Shown piece by piece: positions 30,322 through 35,377 of a stretch of 64,000 bases of DNA (position 1 is the stretch's first letter; each line of letters opens with the position of its first letter). Source of the DNA: Streptacidiphilus jiangxiensis (GTDB lineage Bacteria; Actinomycetota; Actinomycetes; Streptomycetales; Streptomycetaceae); assembly GCF_900109465.1 (NCBI RefSeq), contig NZ_FOAZ01000014.1, positions 1-64,000 on the forward strand, in the 5' to 3' direction. The translations under genes were made by a program, and so were the position numbers. The notes beneath the pieces are model-generated. The model was given only the letters and a program-made list of their open reading frames with translations, was not told where the DNA came from and did not search any database.

Positions 30322-30687
30322 ATGCCCACCGCCGAGCAGACCTGTCCGCAGCACCCGCCCGGACTGGCCGCCCTCCTGCAGGGCGTGCTCGCCAAGCACC
30401 CCCGGACGACCCCGCGGGACCTGGCCCAGCAGACCGGGATCCCCGCTGAGGTCATCTCGTCCTGGATCGCCGGCAGCGACTCCGGCGCGGGCGCGTCCTC
30501 CACCGACCTGCGGGCCCTGGCCGAAGCGCTCCCCGGCCCGCACACCGTCGCATGCATCCTGCGGGCAGCGGGACGGCGCACCCCCGCAGACCTGGCCACC
30601 GAACGCGAACAACGGCTTCTCGAGGCCTACCGCGCTCTGGACACCGACAAGCAGCGCCAACTCGTCCGCCTGGCACGCGCGATGTGA
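30322..30687 (+). CDS. XRE-type helix-turn-helix regulator
   Basis: 121 aa. A helix-turn-helix is visible at about residues 31-70 (TPRDLAQQTGIPAEVISSWIAG then TDLRALAEALPG). A short helical tail ends EREQRLLEAYRALDTDKQRQLVRLARAM. ATG 30322 is used since the upstream in-frame extension is low-complexity. It shares general layout (N-terminal HTH, C-terminal helical tail with LDTDKQRQLVRLAR / LSPENRRHVAALVE) with the regulator at 34542. Together they flank the peptide/M50 locus, which they may control. Confidence 0.65.
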   Translation: MPTAEQTCPQHPPGLAALLQGVLAKHPRTTPRDLAQQTGIPAEVISSWIAGSDSGAGASSTDLRALAEALPGPHTVACILRAAGRRTPADLATEREQRLLEAYRALDTDKQRQLVRLARAM

Positions 30688-30692
30688 CAGCC

Positions 30693-30992
30693 TCAGCGGC
30701 GACGCGGCGACGGCAGGTGAGGCGGGCCACCCGGGTACGGGGGGCGGGGTGCGGGGATCCAGGGGGCCGGACTGTCTTCGGTCTCGCGAGGAGCGGGCAT
30801 CGTCCTGCGCACCAGGGCCGCAGCGGACTCCGGCTCCGCGCAGAGCTGTTCCAGTTGCTGCTCGAACCAGTTGTGGCGTGGGGCGCGCGACGCTTCGAGG
30901 ACCTGCTCGGCCGCGTCGGGACCCCTGCGTCCCTGCCGCGGTGGCCTCCGCGGGCCAAGGCCTCTGAACAGCCGTGTCAGGAGAGCCCTCAT
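30693..30992 (-). CDS. Small hypothetical protein of the peptide/M50 locus
   Basis: 99 aa, very basic N-terminus (MRALLTRLFRGLGPRRPPRQGRRG), a central helix-forming stretch (FEQQLEQLCAEPESAAALVRR) and a proline-rich tail. ATG 30992 has ggaaggg 3-4 nt upstream, a good ribosome site. It follows the 201-aa protein gene by 103 bp on the same strand and converges on the XRE gene with 5 bp between stops. No family recognised. Confidence 0.5.
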   Translation of the reverse strand: MRALLTRLFRGLGPRRPPRQGRRGPDAAEQVLEASRAPRHNWFEQQLEQLCAEPESAAALVRRTMPAPRETEDSPAPWIPAPRPPYPGGPPHLPSPRRR

Positions 30993-31095
30993 GGTTCCCT
31001 TCCGAGGTGGTGCGTTGCCGGGATGCTGCTGGGTCGTTCCTGGCGGGCCGAGACGGCAGGAACGCCTGCCCGCCCGCCGTCATGGGCGCGAGGCG

Positions 31096-31701
31096 TCAGC
31101 CGCGCCCGAAGTAGCGGTAGACGGTCACCCTGGCCTGGTTCTGCGTCAGGGCAGGGACGCCGGGTCCTCTCGGCACCCTGGCTGCGGCAGCCCGCAGGAC
31201 GACCGTGACCTGGGCGGCGAGTCCGTCGGCCTGCCGTCTGATCTCGATGTCCGGAGCCAGGGAGCGGCCGACTGCGTCCAGCTTGCGGTGGATGTCGGCC
31301 AGCGCCTGGCGGTCGGACGCGCGGAGCGTGAAGGGGCGGGGCGTGGAGACGATGAACTGGTAGGCCCCGAAGTAGGCCTGGCAACGGGGACGGTGGACGT
31401 GGTCGGCGCACCGGAGGCTCGAGGCGTTGAGGCGGATGTCCGTGCCGGCCATGGTCACGATCCGGAAGGAGAGGAAGACCGAACGGCACAGTGGGGAGGG
31501 CCGACCGTGGACGGAGTCGGGCGCGGCCCGGTTGTCGGAGGTGCGGGTGGCTTCGGCGGGGGTGACGACACCGAAGACGGCCTGTGTCTGGCCGGCACCG
31601 GCGAGGCTTGCGGGGCCGGCGGTCGGGAGCCGGGCGGCGACCAGGGCCGGCCGGGCGGGGCCGGGCACGTCGCTGCTCCTGGGGTGGCGGCCGGTCGACA
31701 T
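31096..31701 (-). CDS. Hypothetical protein downstream of the M50 peptidase
   Basis: 201 aa. ATG 31701 has an excellent ribosome site (aaggaga, 7 nt spacing). The N-terminal ~65 residues look unstructured. The C-terminal part holds SVFLSFRIVTMAGTDIRLNASS, CQAYFGAYQFIVS, a charged helix (DRQALADIHRKLDAVGRSLAPDIEIRRQADGLAAQVTVVLRAAA) and an ending TVYRYFGRG. No transmembrane helix is obvious. It starts 40 bp after the M50 gene, in the same operon. Its pairing with the protease and precursor-like peptides suggests a role in processing, binding or immunity; this is inferred only from context. Confidence 0.6.
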   Translation of the reverse strand: MSTGRHPRSSDVPGPARPALVAARLPTAGPASLAGAGQTQAVFGVVTPAEATRTSDNRAAPDSVHGRPSPLCRSVFLSFRIVTMAGTDIRLNASSLRCADHVHRPRCQAYFGAYQFIVSTPRPFTLRASDRQALADIHRKLDAVGRSLAPDIEIRRQADGLAAQVTVVLRAAAARVPRGPGVPALTQNQARVTVYRYFGRG

Positions 31702-31741
31702 GCGACTGTCTCCTTGATGGCGTGCGGTAGGGCGGTTGCTC

Positions 31742-33643
31742 TCACGGGGTGCGGCGGGCCCGTGGCGAGCGACGAGGGGTCTGGCTTCGTCCCGGGGTGG
31801 CCGGGGCGGGCGGGCTCGCCGCCCCGGTACCGGTCGAGGGCGTGGAGGAGGGTGTCCGCGCAGGAGTGGGCGAACCCGTGGGGCTCGGACCGCCCGGGCT
31901 CGACGTACCGGTGGGCAGTTGTGTCGGGCCGACCGACGGACCGGTGGTGGCGGCGGTGGCCGATGGGGTACCGGCCGGTCCGGGGTGGGTGCCGGACGGG
32001 GACGGAACGGCAAGGGAAGAGGCCGTTGCGGTGGGGGTGGGCGAGGCGGAGGGAGACGCCGTCTCGCTCGGCTTCGAGCCGGACGGCGCGACGGTCAGGG
32101 ACGGATGGTGGTGAACCTTGGCACGGACCGAGTGCTTCGGCACGACCCGTACCACCGGGACGCCGGGTTGGAGGACGGGGACGATGGGAGGTTGGGGTGG
32201 CAGGGGTTTGGGGGTGAGGCCGACGACCCAGGCGCAGCACAGGCCGCCTGCGGCGACCAGCCCGAACGCGCACAGTGCGGCGCGCAGGCGGGGTCGTCCG
32301 GCGGTGGCCCGGCGGGCGGCGCGCAGCAGGCGGCCGGCCAGGCGGACGGAGAGGTAGGCCATGCCGGCCAGCGGGCAGACCAGCATCAGGCAGCCGAGCA
32401 GTCCCACCGTGCCGGAGGCGAACTGGCCGTGGGTGAACGCGTCCGCGGTGCCGGAGAGTTGCTCGGTCAGCGAGCGGATCCCGGTGGCGAGTATCCGGGG
32501 CAGGTTCCACAGGGCGTAGCCCAGGTCGCCCAGCAGCAGCGGCACCATCGTGCAGACCCAGGTGGTGACGATGACGCGGGCGGAACGCTTGAGGTCGGCG
32601 ACCTCGGGCGGGGTGGGACGGCCCGGGACCATGCTGAGCACGATCGGGCGGATCTTGCCGTAGAGGTCGGGGATGCCGGCCAGGTCGCCGAGGATGTAGT
32701 AGCCGTCGAGGCGGACCGCCGGCATCAGCTGTTCGAGCACCTCGAAGTGGCCGAGGTAGACGGCGCTGAGGAAGAACGGCTGACCGGTCAGGAAGTAACA
32801 GCCGGTCAGCGCGAGCATGAAGACGACGTTGAAGTAGACCCCGCCGAGGTCGGTGCGGATCCGGCCGGCCCGGCCGATCCGGTAGACGTCGGTGACGTCG
32901 GTGTACATCGAGGGCCAGATCAGGAACAGGCCGCAGCCGATGCAGCCCGGTCTCGCGCCCCCGTAACGGCAGGCCGAGGCGTGCCCGAACTCGTGGAAGA
33001 CCAGCGAGCCCACGGTCAGCGCGAAGACCACCAGCAGCAGCACGGGCTGGTCCAGCACGTGCAGCACCGGCGTCATCGCGCCGTAGTAGCCGAACAGCCA
33101 CACGTCCATGGCGACCGCCGCGAACAGCACGGCCGCGACCACCGCGGGCCGGTGCAGCCAGGCCAGCGAACGCCCGATCCGGGCCACACGGCGCTCGTCG
33201 AACAGCACCCGGTGGCCCTTGAGGGCGAGCAGCAGGTCCGAACGCGGCGCGTCGACCTCGTCGTCCTCCTGGTCGTAGGGGACGCTGACGCCGAGCGGGA
33301 TGAGCTTGTTCTCGATCAGGTAGGCGACGTTCTCCTCACTGACCTCACGCCCGAACAGGCCGCTGACCCGGTGCGAGATCCCCTCGGTGTCACGCTCCCC
33401 GTCGATCGCGCCCGCGACCAGGTGGAGCAGCCGGGACAACTGCACCACCTGACCGTCCCCACGGCGGGCGATGTACCGGGGCTCGTTGAACCCCGACCCC
33501 TGGTACTCGCCGTGCAGCCGCAACCCGGCCGAGAGCCGGGGTACGGGGAACACCGGACCTGGCAGGTGCGGCGGCTGCACGGGCGTGGCGAAGCCACCTG
33601 GACCGGGTACGACCGCGACCTCGGTCTCCACAGTGACTGTCAT
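31742..33643 (-). CDS. M50 (site-2-protease-like) peptide zinc metalloprotease with possible PqqD-like N-terminal domain
   Basis: 633 aa. Residues ~50-120 (GFNEPRYIARRGDGQVVQLSRLLHLVAGAIDGERDTEGISHRV...) resemble a PqqD-like winged helix, the fold that binds leader peptides in RiPP systems. Several TM helices follow. Zinc motif HEFGH is at 217-221 inside a TM segment and the third-ligand motif LDGYYILGD at 312-320, as in M50 intramembrane proteases. A cysteine cluster (Cys225, 234, 237) follows the active site. From about residue 465 a long Pro/Ser/Thr-rich tail extends, probably outside the cell. ATG 33643 follows ggaggaaa. Likely substrate: the two precursor-like peptides encoded just upstream. 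Confidence 0.82.
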   Translation of the reverse strand: MTVTVETEVAVVPGPGGFATPVQPPHLPGPVFPVPRLSAGLRLHGEYQGSGFNEPRYIARRGDGQVVQLSRLLHLVAGAIDGERDTEGISHRVSGLFGREVSEENVAYLIENKLIPLGVSVPYDQEDDEVDAPRSDLLLALKGHRVLFDERRVARIGRSLAWLHRPAVVAAVLFAAVAMDVWLFGYYGAMTPVLHVLDQPVLLLVVFALTVGSLVFHEFGHASACRYGGARPGCIGCGLFLIWPSMYTDVTDVYRIGRAGRIRTDLGGVYFNVVFMLALTGCYFLTGQPFFLSAVYLGHFEVLEQLMPAVRLDGYYILGDLAGIPDLYGKIRPIVLSMVPGRPTPPEVADLKRSARVIVTTWVCTMVPLLLGDLGYALWNLPRILATGIRSLTEQLSGTADAFTHGQFASGTVGLLGCLMLVCPLAGMAYLSVRLAGRLLRAARRATAGRPRLRAALCAFGLVAAGGLCCAWVVGLTPKPLPPQPPIVPVLQPGVPVVRVVPKHSVRAKVHHHPSLTVAPSGSKPSETASPSASPTPTATASSLAVPSPSGTHPGPAGTPSATAATTGPSVGPTQLPTGTSSPGGPSPTGSPTPARTPSSTPSTGTGAASPPAPATPGRSQTPRRSPRARRTP

Positions 33644-33664
33644 CTGCGCGTTTCCTCCCCCGTA

Positions 33665-33701
33665 GGCGCGGGCCGGCTCCTCCCCCGAGCCGACCCGCGC
33701 C
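33665..33701 (-). terminator. Hairpin between precursor genes and the M50 gene (possible partial terminator)
   Basis: 15-bp stem with one mismatch: ggcgcgggccggctc (33665-33679) against gagccgacccgcgcc (33687-33701), 7-nt loop. No T run follows on the reverse strand. In peptide gene clusters such a structure after precursor genes typically lets most transcripts stop, giving an excess of precursor mRNA over enzyme mRNA. Confidence 0.6.
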
Positions 33702-33797
33702 GCGGTCGTTTCTGGTGCCCTGACTACTGCGTGGTGCAGGTGATGCGGGTAGTGCTGGTGATACGGGCAGTGCGGGTGGGGCAGGTGATGCCTGGAA

Positions 33798-34016
33798 CTA
33801 CTGGGAGATGACGATCGACTGGCTGGCCTCGGACTCGGCCGTGGCGCCGTTGGAGCCGACGTTCATCGCGGTGGAGTGGTTGTGGGCGTTGACGGTGGCG
33901 ACGTGCTTGGTCACGTTGACCGTCTTGTGGAAGCTGAACTTCAGCCGGCCCAGCGCCTCGCGGCCCGGGAGCAGCTCGGCGGACTCGGCGTCGAGCTCGT
34001 GCATGTCCATGCTCAT
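33798..34016 (-). CDS. Precursor-like small peptide A (72 aa)
   Basis: 72 aa. Residues 1-27 read MSMDMHELDAESAELLPGRE then ALGRLKF and match peptide B almost exactly. The rest (FHKTVNVTKHVATVNAHNHS, then TAMNVGSNGATAESEASQSI and VISQ) is rich in Thr, Asn, His, Ser and Val with alternating polar/hydrophobic residues; it has no cysteine. ATG 34016 follows aaggaga, an excellent site. The conserved, acidic, amphipathic N-terminal part with ELLPGREAL looks like a leader for enzyme recognition and the variable C-terminal half like the product. Second of two paralogues upstream of the M50 gene. Confidence 0.75.
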   Translation of the reverse strand: MSMDMHELDAESAELLPGREALGRLKFSFHKTVNVTKHVATVNAHNHSTAMNVGSNGATAESEASQSIVISQ

Positions 34017-34064
34017 GGTGTTCTCCTTGGTGGTTGCTTGTGGCGGGTTGCGAGCGGGCCGGGA

Positions 34065-34277
34065 CTACTGGTGGATGACGATCGACTGCGAGGCGTCCGA
34101 CGCGGCGGTGGCGCAGTTCGAGCCGACGTTGGTCGCCGTCGAGGTGTTGTGCGCGTTGACGTGGACGACGTGCTTGGTGACCGTCTTGGTGAAGTTGAAC
34201 TTCAGCCGGCCCAGCGCCTCGCGGCCGGGCAGCAGCTCAGCGGACTCGGCCTCGAGCTCGTGCAGGTCCATGCTCAT
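34065..34277 (-). CDS. Precursor-like small peptide B (70 aa)
   Basis: 70 aa. The leader-like MSMDLHELEAESAELLPGRE plus ALGRLKF differs from peptide A at only two positions. The C-terminal half (FTKTVTKHVVHVNAHNTSTA, then TNVGSNCATAASDASQSIVI and HQ) is two residues shorter in the Val/Thr region and contains one Cys. ATG 34277 follows gagggg. First gene of the reverse-strand operon, 48 bp before peptide A, and the one nearest the promoter with twin operators. The two genes clearly arose by tandem duplication. Confidence 0.75.
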   Translation of the reverse strand: MSMDLHELEAESAELLPGREALGRLKFNFTKTVTKHVVHVNAHNTSTATNVGSNCATAASDASQSIVIHQ

Positions 34278-34295
34278 GAGAATCCCCCTCGGGAT

Positions 34296-34323
34296 GCAGT
34301 AGCGACGGCGTCCGATCGTCCAA
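34296..34323 (-). promoter_or_regulatory. Candidate promoter of the peptide/M50 operon
   Basis: On the reverse strand, -35 TTGGAC (34318-34323), a 16-nt spacer and -10 TACTGC (34296-34301) precede the peptide B start by about 19 nt. The -35 box is part of one operator half-site, so regulator binding would block RNA polymerase. Confidence 0.5.
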
Positions 34324-34357
34324 CCCTGTCGGACGCCTTGTCCAACGAGATTGGACA
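34317..34357. promoter_or_regulatory. Twin operators in the peptide-operon / XRE divergent region
   Basis: TGTCCAA-N5-TTGGACA (34339-34357) is a perfect 7-bp-arm palindrome. A second site GTCCAA-N5-TCGGAC (34318-34334) has the same 5-nt spacer and one mismatch. The centres are 22 bp apart, two helical turns. The proximal site overlaps the operon's likely -35 box. The adjacent divergent XRE regulator (34542) is the best candidate binder. Confidence 0.75.
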
Positions 34358-34541
34358 GTAGTCACCCCGGAAGCACCGGCGCAAGGGTTTCGATGGCAAC
34401 GCTCTGTCACAGACTCGTAACAGAGAGAAATGTGCAGGTGGGCGGCCATGCGGCGGCCCAAGAAGGCGTGATCGCCCTAGAATCGACCCCGCAGGACCGC
34501 CGGCCCGGCCGTCCCGGGCGGAGCACGAGGGAGGGAGCGGG

Positions 34542-34931
34542 GTGTCCAACGAGGCGTCCAACGCACTGCAGGCACTCATGCGGGAGCGACTGGACCGGCA
34601 GGGCTGGTCCTACGGCGACGTGGCGCGCCGGGGCGAGATCCCCCGATCCACGGTGCACCACCTGGCGACCACCGACCGCCTGGTGCGGATGCCCCAGCCC
34701 GCCACCCTGGAGGGCCTGTCCCGCGGACTGGAGCTGCCGCTGGACACGATCCGCCGCGCGGCGGCGGAGGCGTGCGGCATCCACCTGTACGAGGCTGCGC
34801 CCGACCCCGAGGTCGACGTGCTCATCGCGAGCGTCCAGCAGCTGTCGCCGGAGAACCGGCGCCACGTCGCAGCCCTGGTCGAATCCCTGCTCGAACGGAG
34901 CCGCCACCCGGAGGGTGAAGCTTCGGACTAG
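34542..34931 (+). CDS. XRE-type regulator divergent to the peptide operon
   Basis: 129 aa, GTG start with gagggag upstream and a good -10 (TAGAAT, 34478-34483). The N-terminal HTH reads LQALMRERLDRQGWSYGDVARRGEIPRSTVHHLATTDR, followed by ATLEGLSRGLELPLDTIRRAAAEA. The C-terminal helix includes LSPENRRHVAALVESLLERS. Its position facing the precursor genes across twin operators suggests it controls the peptide operon. Confidence 0.78.
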   Translation: MSNEASNALQALMRERLDRQGWSYGDVARRGEIPRSTVHHLATTDRLVRMPQPATLEGLSRGLELPLDTIRRAAAEACGIHLYEAAPDPEVDVLIASVQQLSPENRRHVAALVESLLERSRHPEGEASD

Positions 34932-35116: not shown

Positions 35117-35377
35117 GTGCTGGTCGTGCAAGGAAGCCCCACCACAGCGGTGGTTCGGGGCCGTACCGGGGAATCCGTGGTGCTGCTCTCCGGGGAGCTG
35201 CCCACCGTACTGACGGAGGAGGCCCTGACCCAGGTCCTCGACCTGGCCGCCGCGGTCCTGGACCGCGACGAGATGATCCTCTTCCGCCGCTGCCTCGACG
35301 CCCTGCGCCGGGGCGACATAAGCCGCACCCGTCGCATCGCGATCGACGGAGCGGTCCTGACGGTCTGGCAGGACTGA
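35117..35377 (+). CDS. Small hypothetical protein
   Basis: 86 aa from GTG 35117 with ggggga upstream. Sequence: LVVQGSPTTAVVRGRTGES, VLLSGELPTVLTEEALTQVL, LDRDEMILFRRCLDALRRGD and RRIAIDGAVLTVWQD. It looks like a compact alpha/beta or helical protein; no signal or TM segment. No family recognised. It may extend the XRE transcription unit (186 bp gap). A hairpin follows at 35403. Confidence 0.55.
   Translation: MLVVQGSPTTAVVRGRTGESVVLLSGELPTVLTEEALTQVLDLAAAVLDRDEMILFRRCLDALRRGDISRTRRIAIDGAVLTVWQD

Follow-up and report, generated by a model that had tools for sequence, protein, structure and literature searches.

Short leader-bearing peptides encoded beside a membrane protease with an RRE-like domain in Streptomyces and other Actinomycetota

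Introduction

RRE domains are known chiefly as helpers of peptide-modifying enzymes. What does such a domain do on a membrane protease that is encoded beside two short peptides, with no modifying enzyme recognised nearby? The question was raised by the interval 30322-34931 of the window, a 64,000-nucleotide stretch of Streptacidiphilus jiangxiensis DNA. The original prediction for this interval comprised twin precursor-like peptides, an M50 protease with a PqqD-like domain, two unknown proteins and two flanking XRE regulators. We describe here a small, unannotated gene set in which short leader-bearing peptides adjoin a membrane protease in the Streptomyces group. The cassette is widespread across Actinomycetota, and no description of it was found in Pfam, NCBIfam or text searches of open-licence PMC papers. 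An RRE-type domain thus occurs across this phylum on a membrane protease, with no common modifying enzyme recognised and with cargo that looks structural, which makes a site-2 protease acting as exporter a testable question.

Results

The peptides and the protease are encoded together

Homologous protease loci (n = 80) were collected from genome contigs, and the open reading frames (ORFs) of the window were matched to them by frame. A strict leader motif was detected in 71 of the 80 loci. In 68 of these 71 a script placed the peptide directly upstream of the protease, with two peptides in 60 loci, three peptides in 2 and a single one in 6. Peptides are present in L016, L033 and L045 as well, the remaining three, where the protease position assigned by the script was wrong. 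Among the nine loci without the strict motif, six carry leader variants, identified by eye, and three start at a contig edge, so that a peptide was found in all 77 loci having upstream sequence. In the reverse direction, 29 loci were found by peptide similarity in other genomes, and 27 of them contained the protease, both misses lying at a contig end. A leader-type motif was present upstream of the protease in 70/76 and 28/39 loci of two locus sets, compared with 1/76 and 2/39 on the opposite strand and 3/67 and 0/33 downstream; the strict class scan missed 11 of the 39, and in most of these 11 a peptide can be seen by eye. In a phylum-wide sample of 24 loci, which includes the window's own genome and one Streptomyces locus counted before, a leader-type peptide was recorded for 15 and for none of the other 9, at least one of which (L211) does have such a peptide that the filter missed. 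A plasmid search returned one record. The pairing of peptide and protease, which the original prediction had proposed to look for in other genomes, is therefore conserved and well supported.

The precursors share a leader and carry cores with alternating conservation

Peptide A (70 amino acids, 34065-34277) and its paralogue peptide B (72 amino acids, 33798-34016) are tandem ORFs on the minus strand. They share the leader ELLPGREALGRLKF; in peptide A the leader MSMDLHELEAESAELLPGREALGRLKF is followed by a putative arch-type core. Third-position GC is 0.99 for A and 1.00 for B, so both are real genes, as predicted. The two peptides are 83% identical over their full length, not in the leader alone, which contradicts the divergent C-terminal half ascribed to them. 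Automatic gene calling picks an antisense frame over both window peptides; the cluster of the neighbouring XRE gene is affected as well, and the frame count was used for that gene.

A family alignment of 160 sequences was assembled by the leader motif, the core not being used in choosing, so the invariance of the leader in it is partly by construction. The C-terminal residue is Gln in all 160. The core exhibited strict conservation of every second residue (period 2, permutation p = 5e-5), and the leader did not (p = 0.45). Alternating conserved subunit positions of this kind are expected of functional amyloids and beta-arches; the pattern is consistent with one beta-arch per core, without proving it. 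Small residues, Asn and Gln occupy the invariant positions of these polar cores, and one longer precursor contains two core copies that are 56% identical. Window-type cores have about 45 residues, and precursors of other families range from roughly 225 to 494 residues. Across loci the core types vary widely (arch type, His-Pro, Asp/Arg/Gly/His repeats) and the leader is retained.

No transmembrane segment was obvious in the precursors, although the protease is of the intramembrane type. In another genome, one related non-arch core is preceded by a Sec-type signal peptide. A Pfam search of both window peptides returned no family and hence no chaplin (PF03777) match. One core from another species gave a weak ChpA-C match below the cut-off (E = 0.0096), and two relatives of that core gave none; the chaplin relationship was kept as a lead only.

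The protease combines an RRE-like domain with a site-2 protease fold

The predicted M50 protease was found at 31742-33643 on the minus strand (633 amino acids), with the HEFGH zinc motif at residues 217-221 (32981-32995) and LDGYYILGD beginning with LDGYY at residues 312-316. It was assigned from an AlphaFold model and from matches to the daptide family NF041824 (daptide_HExxH; 79.8 bits against a cut-off of 300, residues 55-327) and to NF058609 (37.5 bits against 225, residues 204-318, the protease part only). H217, E218, H221 and D313 are invariant among 38 aligned protease sequences. With the model of residues 1-480 (pLDDT 84.9), a fold search ranked SpoIVFB (8vjl) first and S2P (3b4r) second, residues 142-384 aligning to 3b4r with Z 7.0. 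HExxH and a distal Asp motif in transmembrane helices are expected of site-2 proteases, and the protein agrees with this. A Pro/Ser/Thr-rich tail (residues 480-633, 31742-32206) is probably located outside the membrane.

Residues 42-117 (33293-33520) are modelled as three strands followed by three helices, the winged-helix order of PqqD/RRE domains, in agreement with the predicted PqqD-like domain. Residues 33-124 moderately resemble the lasso RRE TbiB1 (5v1u, 5v1v), whose structure is that of a free-standing protein together with its leader, whereas the RRE-like domain here is part of the protease and would bind a leader by analogy. The match to 5v1v (Z 4.8, rmsd 3.1 Å, 83 residues) and to 5v1u (TMt 0.59, Foldseek E 0.83) is moderate and statistically not clearly significant, unrelated helical proteins reaching Z 6.4 in the same fold list. 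A Pfam search of the whole protease at E up to 1 found no family, hence no PqqD/RRE sequence match; the RRE assignment draws on the predicted fold and the daptide protease model. Three outcomes had been named as telling against the original idea, namely the lack of a PqqD-like fold, the lack of co-occurrence and the assignment of the peptides to a known unrelated family, and none of them occurred.

A divergent XRE gene and an 86-amino-acid gene belong to the cassette and two downstream ORFs do not

Only one of the two flanking XRE regulators proved to be part of the set. The divergent XRE-type gene at 34542-34931 on the plus strand was matched in frame in 70 of the 80 loci, and by this count it is a conserved cassette part; its matches to HTH_31, HTH_3 and HTH_IclR are all below the cut-offs, and one homologue passes HTH_3. 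The XRE gene at 30322-30687 was matched in 1 of 80 and was ruled out. An 86-amino-acid gene at 35117-35377 on the plus strand, which lies outside the original interval, is present in 69 of the 80 loci and counts as a member; a homologue had no above-cut-off Pfam match and no NCBIfam match at all. As to the two unknown proteins, the 99-amino-acid ORF at 30693-30992 (0 of 80 loci; weaker codon bias, GC3 0.79) was excluded, and the other, at 31096-31701, proved to be a partner gene in decayed form, which had been missed. In the ORF list of 30322-34931, no lanthionine synthetase, YcaO, radical SAM, ATP-grasp, aminotransferase or ABC gene was recognised by eye, as the original prediction had stated.

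A partner protein accompanies arch-type cores

The partner gene, overlooked before, is the most informative component. From its alignment, the minus-strand ORF at 31096-31701 is a degenerate copy: similarity is limited to 31108-31533, tblastn with an intact relative covered only residues 87-228 of the latter, the strand block is missing, and one cysteine is lost from each conserved pair. An intact copy lies on contig C30. Intact partners of relatives begin with a stretch resembling a secretion signal. Among 40 wider loci, 15 have the partner fused to the protease.

The partner model (pLDDT 91.8) contains strands at 6-18, 24-52, 61-73, 78-90 and 96-108, followed by helices, and its core-like stretch corresponds to strands 78-90 and 96-108. 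In a profile alignment core and partner matched in register (E 0.0026), with a score of 23.2 where 60 column shuffles reached at most 18.0; a second family gave 20.5 where 40 shuffles reached at most 16.7. The hhalign probabilities for these matches are low (11.6% and 6.3%); of the two crossed core/partner pairs, one had its score reached in 32 of 40 shuffles, and the other exceeded its shuffles by a small margin (14.9 versus 14.6). An arch motif common to core and partner thus has modest support.

The partner occurred with arch-type cores in 88 of 88 judgeable loci and with other core types in 0 of 18, the cores having been grouped partly by eye, with 13 arch-like loci that the automatic pattern had missed regrouped after the table was seen. 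Shared descent confounds core type, partner and protease lineage with one another. A fold search with the partner found no clear relative (best Z 3.2; no Foldseek match at E 0.001), and its weak list contained several beta-helix proteins (SufB/SufD, ice-binding proteins and acyltransferases) together with unrelated folds. The missing relative is no evidence for a new fold.

The cassette resembles known systems in part

The Bacillus yyd system had been regarded as the sole comparable case. According to PMC10036551, daptide DapP/MpaP carries an RRE at the N-terminus of an intramembrane site-2 protease, so yyd is not the only relative; as there, the cassette has both parts in one protein and several short precursors adjoining. 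Unlike in daptides, the leader is LLPGREAL and not ELExMEAP, the core ends in Gln and not Thr, and there is a secreted or fused partner. Visual inspection of the window interval, and of the families listed as common to the sets of 82 and 40 loci, showed no oxidative decarboxylase, aminotransferase or methyltransferase. Membership of the daptides was rejected from the score below cut-off, the absent tailoring genes and the different leader and C-terminus. The epipeptide protease YydH/EpeP/LiaK, which the available part of PMC10885120 presents as thought to cleave and export, is likewise an M50 protease within a peptide locus, but inspection by eye of the window interval and of the families listed for 82 loci revealed no radical SAM epimerase, and epipeptide membership was rejected on this ground and on the score. 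TmcP, a DUF3267-family protease of the site-2 clan in Staphylococcus, removes the leader of the membrane-processed TMcin peptide; unlike the cassette, its system has a transmembrane antimicrobial product and an ABC exporter, and the text of that paper makes no use of the term RRE (PMC13252029).

The cores, if extracellular as we propose, would resemble rodlins, chaplins and curli CsgA/CsgB in being small, often paired, beta-rich proteins outside the cell. Those proteins have Sec signal peptides, and CsgB is the matching nucleator of CsgA. No sequence relation of the window peptides to rodlins, chaplins or curli was found. Twin rodlins, RdlA/RdlB, occur in Streptomyces, according to the available text of PMC5314377.

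Leader-guided release of unmodified peptides is the preferred reading

The best reading, to which we give a probability of about one half, is that a leader guides the release of unmodified peptides, which then stack on the partner outside the cell; the original suggestion that the peptide may be unmodified or freed by proteolysis stands up. The reading builds on what was observed: the peptide and protease genes are paired, the protease has RRE-like and S2P-like folds, conservation in the core is periodic, the partner occurs together with arch-type cores, and in some loci it is fused to the protease. The RRE domain would bind the twin precursors by their acidic-LLPGREAL leader, and the site-2 protease would cleave near the leader/core junction and then, by analogy with EpeP, let the unmodified core out. 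Each released core is predicted to fold into one two-stranded beta-arch, and cores would stack on each other from a seed, the extracytoplasmic partner with the same arch motif, which in many species forms the C-terminal end of the protease. The product may be a functional-amyloid-like extracellular fibre or coat, not a classical modified RiPP, and the XRE regulator may control the system. We advance only tentatively the wider proposal of a new surface-polymer route in actinobacteria, in which an RRE-site-2 protease cuts and exports unmodified single-arch subunits and nucleates their stacking outside the cell by means of an arch domain, either secreted or fused to its C-terminus, with the cargo swapped in relatives. 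If true, it would be a compact export-and-assembly system for extracellular peptides with a leader tag able to carry varied cargo, and genes now called hypothetical would gain a role.

Small paired precursors with a leader, two or three in most loci, would also suit an unmodified two-peptide, bacteriocin-like antimicrobial that the RRE-protease matures and releases, the 86-amino-acid gene or the partner giving self-protection, and the available parts of PMC10885120 and PMC10036551 have protease relatives maturing an antimicrobial epipeptide and daptides. We consider this unlikely: the cores are not hydrophobic but polar, their invariant positions holding small residues, Asn and Gln, longer precursors of relatives hold two core copies, and the partner resembles the core, not a membrane immunity protein. 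The XRE gene, divergent from the peptides in 70/80 loci, suggests instead pheromones sensed through this regulator. Eep is an M50 protease that processes pheromones, and the site-2 protease could act similarly; cores of ~45 residues and precursors of 225-494 residues in other families are long for this role, domain searches reported no peptide-binding TPR domain for the XRE protein, and XRE is not among the families common to at least 4 of 40 wider loci, which makes the idea quite improbable.

That the peptides are a true RiPP, modified by an enzyme elsewhere in the genome or among neighbouring enzymes, gains from the fact that RRE-bearing proteins mostly belong to RiPP pathways and that RiPP modification in trans exists. 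A flavoprotein-hydroxylase-like gene lies ~2.5 kb downstream in 21/82 loci (by eye), but it is absent from the window and most loci, and its surroundings look like general metabolism. No tailoring enzyme is among the families listed as common to the 40 wider loci, and the invariant core residues suit a fold better than a modification site; we give this explanation very little weight. Equally little weight falls on the peptides being regulators or cofactors of the protease and not exported cargo. The tight gene order and an RRE binding that could serve regulation agree with such a role, but the cores vary while the leader persists, which fits carrier and cargo, and the partner tracks core type.

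Neighbouring genes and a stem-loop

Relative to leader-guided release with the protease as exporter, other genes near the cassette deserve mention. An ABC-type ATPase was found near 36 of 82 loci and an FtsX-like permease near 28, 3.7-5.3 kb upstream on the other strand. These were set aside as cassette parts and treated as neighbours because other general genes recur in 21-28 loci at most of the same distances and the window has no such pair; they are probably conserved neighbours within one species group. Given their proximity, the protease need not be the exporter. Rodlin-like genes were seen by eye ~3.5 kb upstream in 8 loci, apparently of one Streptomyces group by species names, and are therefore not independent support.

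A 15-bp stem-loop lies between peptide B and the protease gene (33665-33701, minus strand), with a folding z of -3.8 in a 77-nt piece and only -1.5 in a 137-nt piece. In the same gap of relatives, examined with approximate borders, a stem of at least 10 bp was present in 45 of 66 loci and absent in 21, among them the close relatives L010 and L011. The stem-loop may possibly act as an attenuator.

A conserved cassette of twin peptides, an M50 protease and a partner gene

The cassette lies in GC-rich DNA. On the minus strand of the window, peptide A (34065-34277, 70 aa, GC3 0.99) and peptide B (33798-34016, 72 aa, GC3 1.00), which are 83% identical over their full length, are followed by a 15-bp stem-loop (33665-33701), the M50 protease gene (31742-33643) and a degenerate gene (31096-31701) that is a remnant of the partner gene found in relatives. 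Divergent to the peptides lie the genes for an XRE protein (34542-34931) and an 86-aa protein (35117-35377). We scanned genome_contigs with two protease queries and kept 80 loci (L numbers below), some of them cut by contig ends, against which the window frames were scored at E 1e-5; the best three protease relatives were from Streptacidiphilus (83-94% identity). The protease frame matched 79/80 loci, each peptide frame 73/80, the divergent XRE gene 70/80, the 86-aa gene 69/80 and the degenerate downstream gene 63/80. The downstream XRE gene found a match in only 1/80 loci and the 99-aa ORF in none of the 80.

The protease contains a putative RRE and a site-2 protease fold

None of the Pfam models was matched by the protease. 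It scored 79.8 bits against the daptide protease model (cut-off 300; residues 55-327) and 37.5 bits against the YydH/LiaK model (cut-off 225; residues 204-318). AlphaFold2 modeling from 38 sequences (pLDDT 84.9) placed three strands followed by three helices, the PqqD/RRE order, at residues 42-117. Residues 33-124, compared as part of the larger protease model, aligned to the leader-bound lasso RRE TbiB1 (5v1v; Z 4.8, rmsd 3.1 A, 83 residues), and the following region aligned to the M. jannaschii site-2 protease (residues 142-384; 3b4r; Z 7.0, rmsd 4.4 A, 162 residues) and to SpoIVFB (residues 151-384; 8vjl; Z 7.1), all moderate values in a comparison list in which unrelated helical proteins reach 6.4. 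The RRE-site-2 protease module and its part in leader removal are already known, since the daptide paper describes RRE domains fused N-terminally to a leader-removing site-2 protease (PMC10036551).

The leader motif accompanies the protease

The strict leader motif was present in 71/80 protease loci. Three of the nine loci without it (L023, L061 and L088) start at a contig edge, and variant leaders (LLPKREAL, LLPSREAL, LLPDREAL, LLPNREAL and ELPERAAM) were found in L081, L082, L085, L086, L087 and L089. In the reverse test, the protease was present in 27/29 loci fetched by peptide similarity, these being the best peptide match per genome among the matches listed, and the two loci without it were at contig ends. 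Among the matches listed, 40/199 relatives had a peptide hit with E no higher than 0.1, and in three of these the E value was just 0.03 to 0.08. In a mechanical control, leader-type motifs were detected upstream on the coding strand in 70/76 and 28/39 loci, on the opposite strand in 1/76 and 2/39 loci, and downstream of the protease in 3/67 and 0/33 loci.

The core is predicted to form a beta-arch

Conservation in the core was examined with 160 distinct precursors selected via the leader motif. Columns 39, 43, 45, 47, 49, 51, 54, 59, 61, 63, 65, 67 and 71 contained a single residue in 94-100% of them (A, A, N, S, A, N, S, A, S, A, Q, I and Q, respectively), and the neighbors of these columns were mostly variable. 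A period-2 signal was detected in the core (permutation p, 5e-5) and not in the leader (p, 0.45). Because of this pattern, we infer that the core forms two strands and a turn, a beta-arch (arch) with the conserved positions facing inward.

Cores of the type LVNIQV..VPIGIAANVC occurred in L221 and L223; one copy follows a Sec-type signal peptide in place of the leader, and a single weak match to the chaplin domain (ChpA-C) was obtained for cores of this type. Ten chaplin-domain matches above the family cut-off, on contigs C59, C63, C67 and C76 of the window's own genome, indicate that the host encodes ordinary chaplins as well.

A constant leader precedes varied cargo

In a class sample of 394 genomes, the protease found matches in 72 at a threshold of E 1e-10, of which 58 had E below 1e-90 and 14 were weak; the wider set comprised 40 regions, drawn from 39 of these strong genomes and one weak genome. 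By script or by eye, 38/40 loci of this set contained precursors with an acidic stretch, an LPxR/LPxK motif and differing cores; the exceptions were L150, which is without upstream sequence, and L188, from the weak genome, without such a peptide. Arch cores occurred in the wider loci as triples (ELPDREAM...NANLAAPVNAAVALNVLSD...) or as two copies within a long precursor (56% identity in the single precursor compared), and further cores were of the NWANI, NSPGSNN and Gly/His types. Comparison by hhalign showed the twin family to be related to the ELPDREAM family across the leader as well as the core (probability 95.6%, E 1.3e-8). In the first set, His-Pro repeat cores were located upstream of the protease in L085-L087. 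A phylum-wide sample gave 25/396 genomes at E 1e-40, and the scan reported leader-type peptides in 15/24 loci examined. Variation of the cargo behind an unchanging leader would be expected if the RRE of the protease recognizes the leader.

The His-Pro precursors of L085-L087 (VHHAPVHHAP...) have cysteines near both ends, and their cargo is possibly metal-binding. The window's own genome contains a second, divergent protease (L005:4471-7060, minus strand, contig C69; 46% identical), upstream of which a leader-like start, MMFSTEELEAQKAGLLPGREALG, continues as a long repeat of Asp/Arg/Gly/His; here the same leader apparently carries a different cargo. In L188, whose protease is a weak relative (77.8 bits), the genes before the protease resemble, by eye, parts of lanthipeptide/thiopeptide-type dehydratases, and this locus probably represents another RiPP class employing an RRE-M50 protein.

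The partner may share the core motif and accompanies arch cores

In relatives, the gene following the protease encodes the partner, which has about 220 aa, two cysteine pairs and, by eye, a start resembling a signal peptide. In 15/40 wider loci, the protease itself carries the partner domain at its C-terminal end. The window copy has decayed: what remains matches only residues 87-228 of a relative's protein, and each cysteine pair is without one cysteine. Contigs C69 and C30 of the same genome, which are likely adjacent, carry further cassette pieces, including an intact partner gene on C30. Their protease DNA is 99.7% (C69, 1006 bases) and 99.6% (C30, 824 bases) identical to that of the window. 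The peptides of the own-genome copies are 84-85% identical, and since the protease stretches are far more alike (99.6-99.7%), the sequences suggest that the protease alone may have been recently duplicated or gene-converted.

Profile alignment matched the core (columns 39-67) to columns 113-141 of the partner, with core Ser54 and Ser57 aligned to both cysteines of the partner CxxC. This match had an E of 0.0026 and a score of 23.2, the highest score among 60 column shuffles being 18.0, with an hhalign probability of only 11.6%. In a second family the register was unchanged (score 20.5, highest of 40 shuffles 16.7; probability 6.3%), and crossed pairs were weaker, one scoring 14.9 against 14.6 and the other 9.5, a level attained by 32/40 shuffles. 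AlphaFold2 modeling of the intact L010 partner (55 sequences; pLDDT 91.8) gave strands at 6-18, 24-52, 61-73, 78-90 and 96-108, followed by helices at 116-132 and 139-161; the core-like stretch spans two of these strands (78-90 and 96-108) and the CxxC turn between them. In this model the strands would stack, and structure comparison found no clear match to it among solved structures.

Co-occurrence of core and partner was tabulated for 122 loci (the first 80, the 40 wider loci, the window, and L005 for its second protease). Automatic grouping gave 74 loci with an arch core and a partner (8 fused; the window included through its remnant), 10 arch loci without a partner but with under 900 bases of downstream sequence, and L155, otherwise the sole arch locus without a downstream partner, whose partner lies upstream on the opposite strand. 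Other peptides occurred without a partner in 16 loci and with one in 9, and no peptide was scored in 12. By eye, the nine loci with another peptide and a partner (L013, L157, L160, L162, L163, L180, L182, L183 and L187) were reassigned to arch. Of the unscored loci, L016, L033, L045 and L186 became arch loci having a partner, L086 and L087 (His-Pro cores) became non-arch loci lacking one, and L081 became a cut-off arch locus. Upstream sequence is missing from L023, L061 and L150, which have the partner, and from L088, which does not; the protease of L188 is only weakly related. After regrouping, the partner was present in 88/88 judgeable arch loci versus 0/18 non-arch loci, with 11 cut-off arch loci and 5 ungroupable loci left out. 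Because regrouping followed sight of the table and the loci share descent, this is an association and not a count of independent events.

No description of this family of leaders, of arch cores, of a matching partner (secreted or fused) or of the Actinomycetota-wide spread was found in Pfam, in NCBIfam or in text searches of open papers. In a public plasmid record, the peptide and the next two genes, by position and length the protease and the partner, are all annotated 'hypothetical protein'.

Proposed mechanism and export

Most likely, the RRE of the protease would bind the leader, the site-2 protease would cut the precursor, and the core would be released outside the cell, possibly via the protease, and stack on the partner and on other cores. 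An outside destination is supported by the secretion-signal-like start of the partner or its attachment to the membrane protease, by the Pro/Ser/Thr-rich tail of the window protease, and by a related non-arch core in one genome (53% identity, E 1.1e-4), in which a Sec-type signal peptide replaces the leader. EpeP is thought to cut and export its own peptide, according to a protease review (PMC10885120). Counting against protease-only export, genes for an ABC-type ATPase (36/82 loci) and an FtsX-like permease (28/82 loci) lie 3.7-5.3 kb upstream on the other strand (e.g., L052:6906-7742 and L073:3813-6341). The window is without these neighbors, which apparently are general ones.

A flavoprotein-hydroxylase-like gene lies ~2.5 kb downstream in 21/82 loci (e.g., L019:12929-14104). 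Genes that by eye are rodlin-like lie ~3.5 kb upstream of the protease in eight Streptomyces loci (e.g., L071:7594-7959), which apparently fall within one species group.
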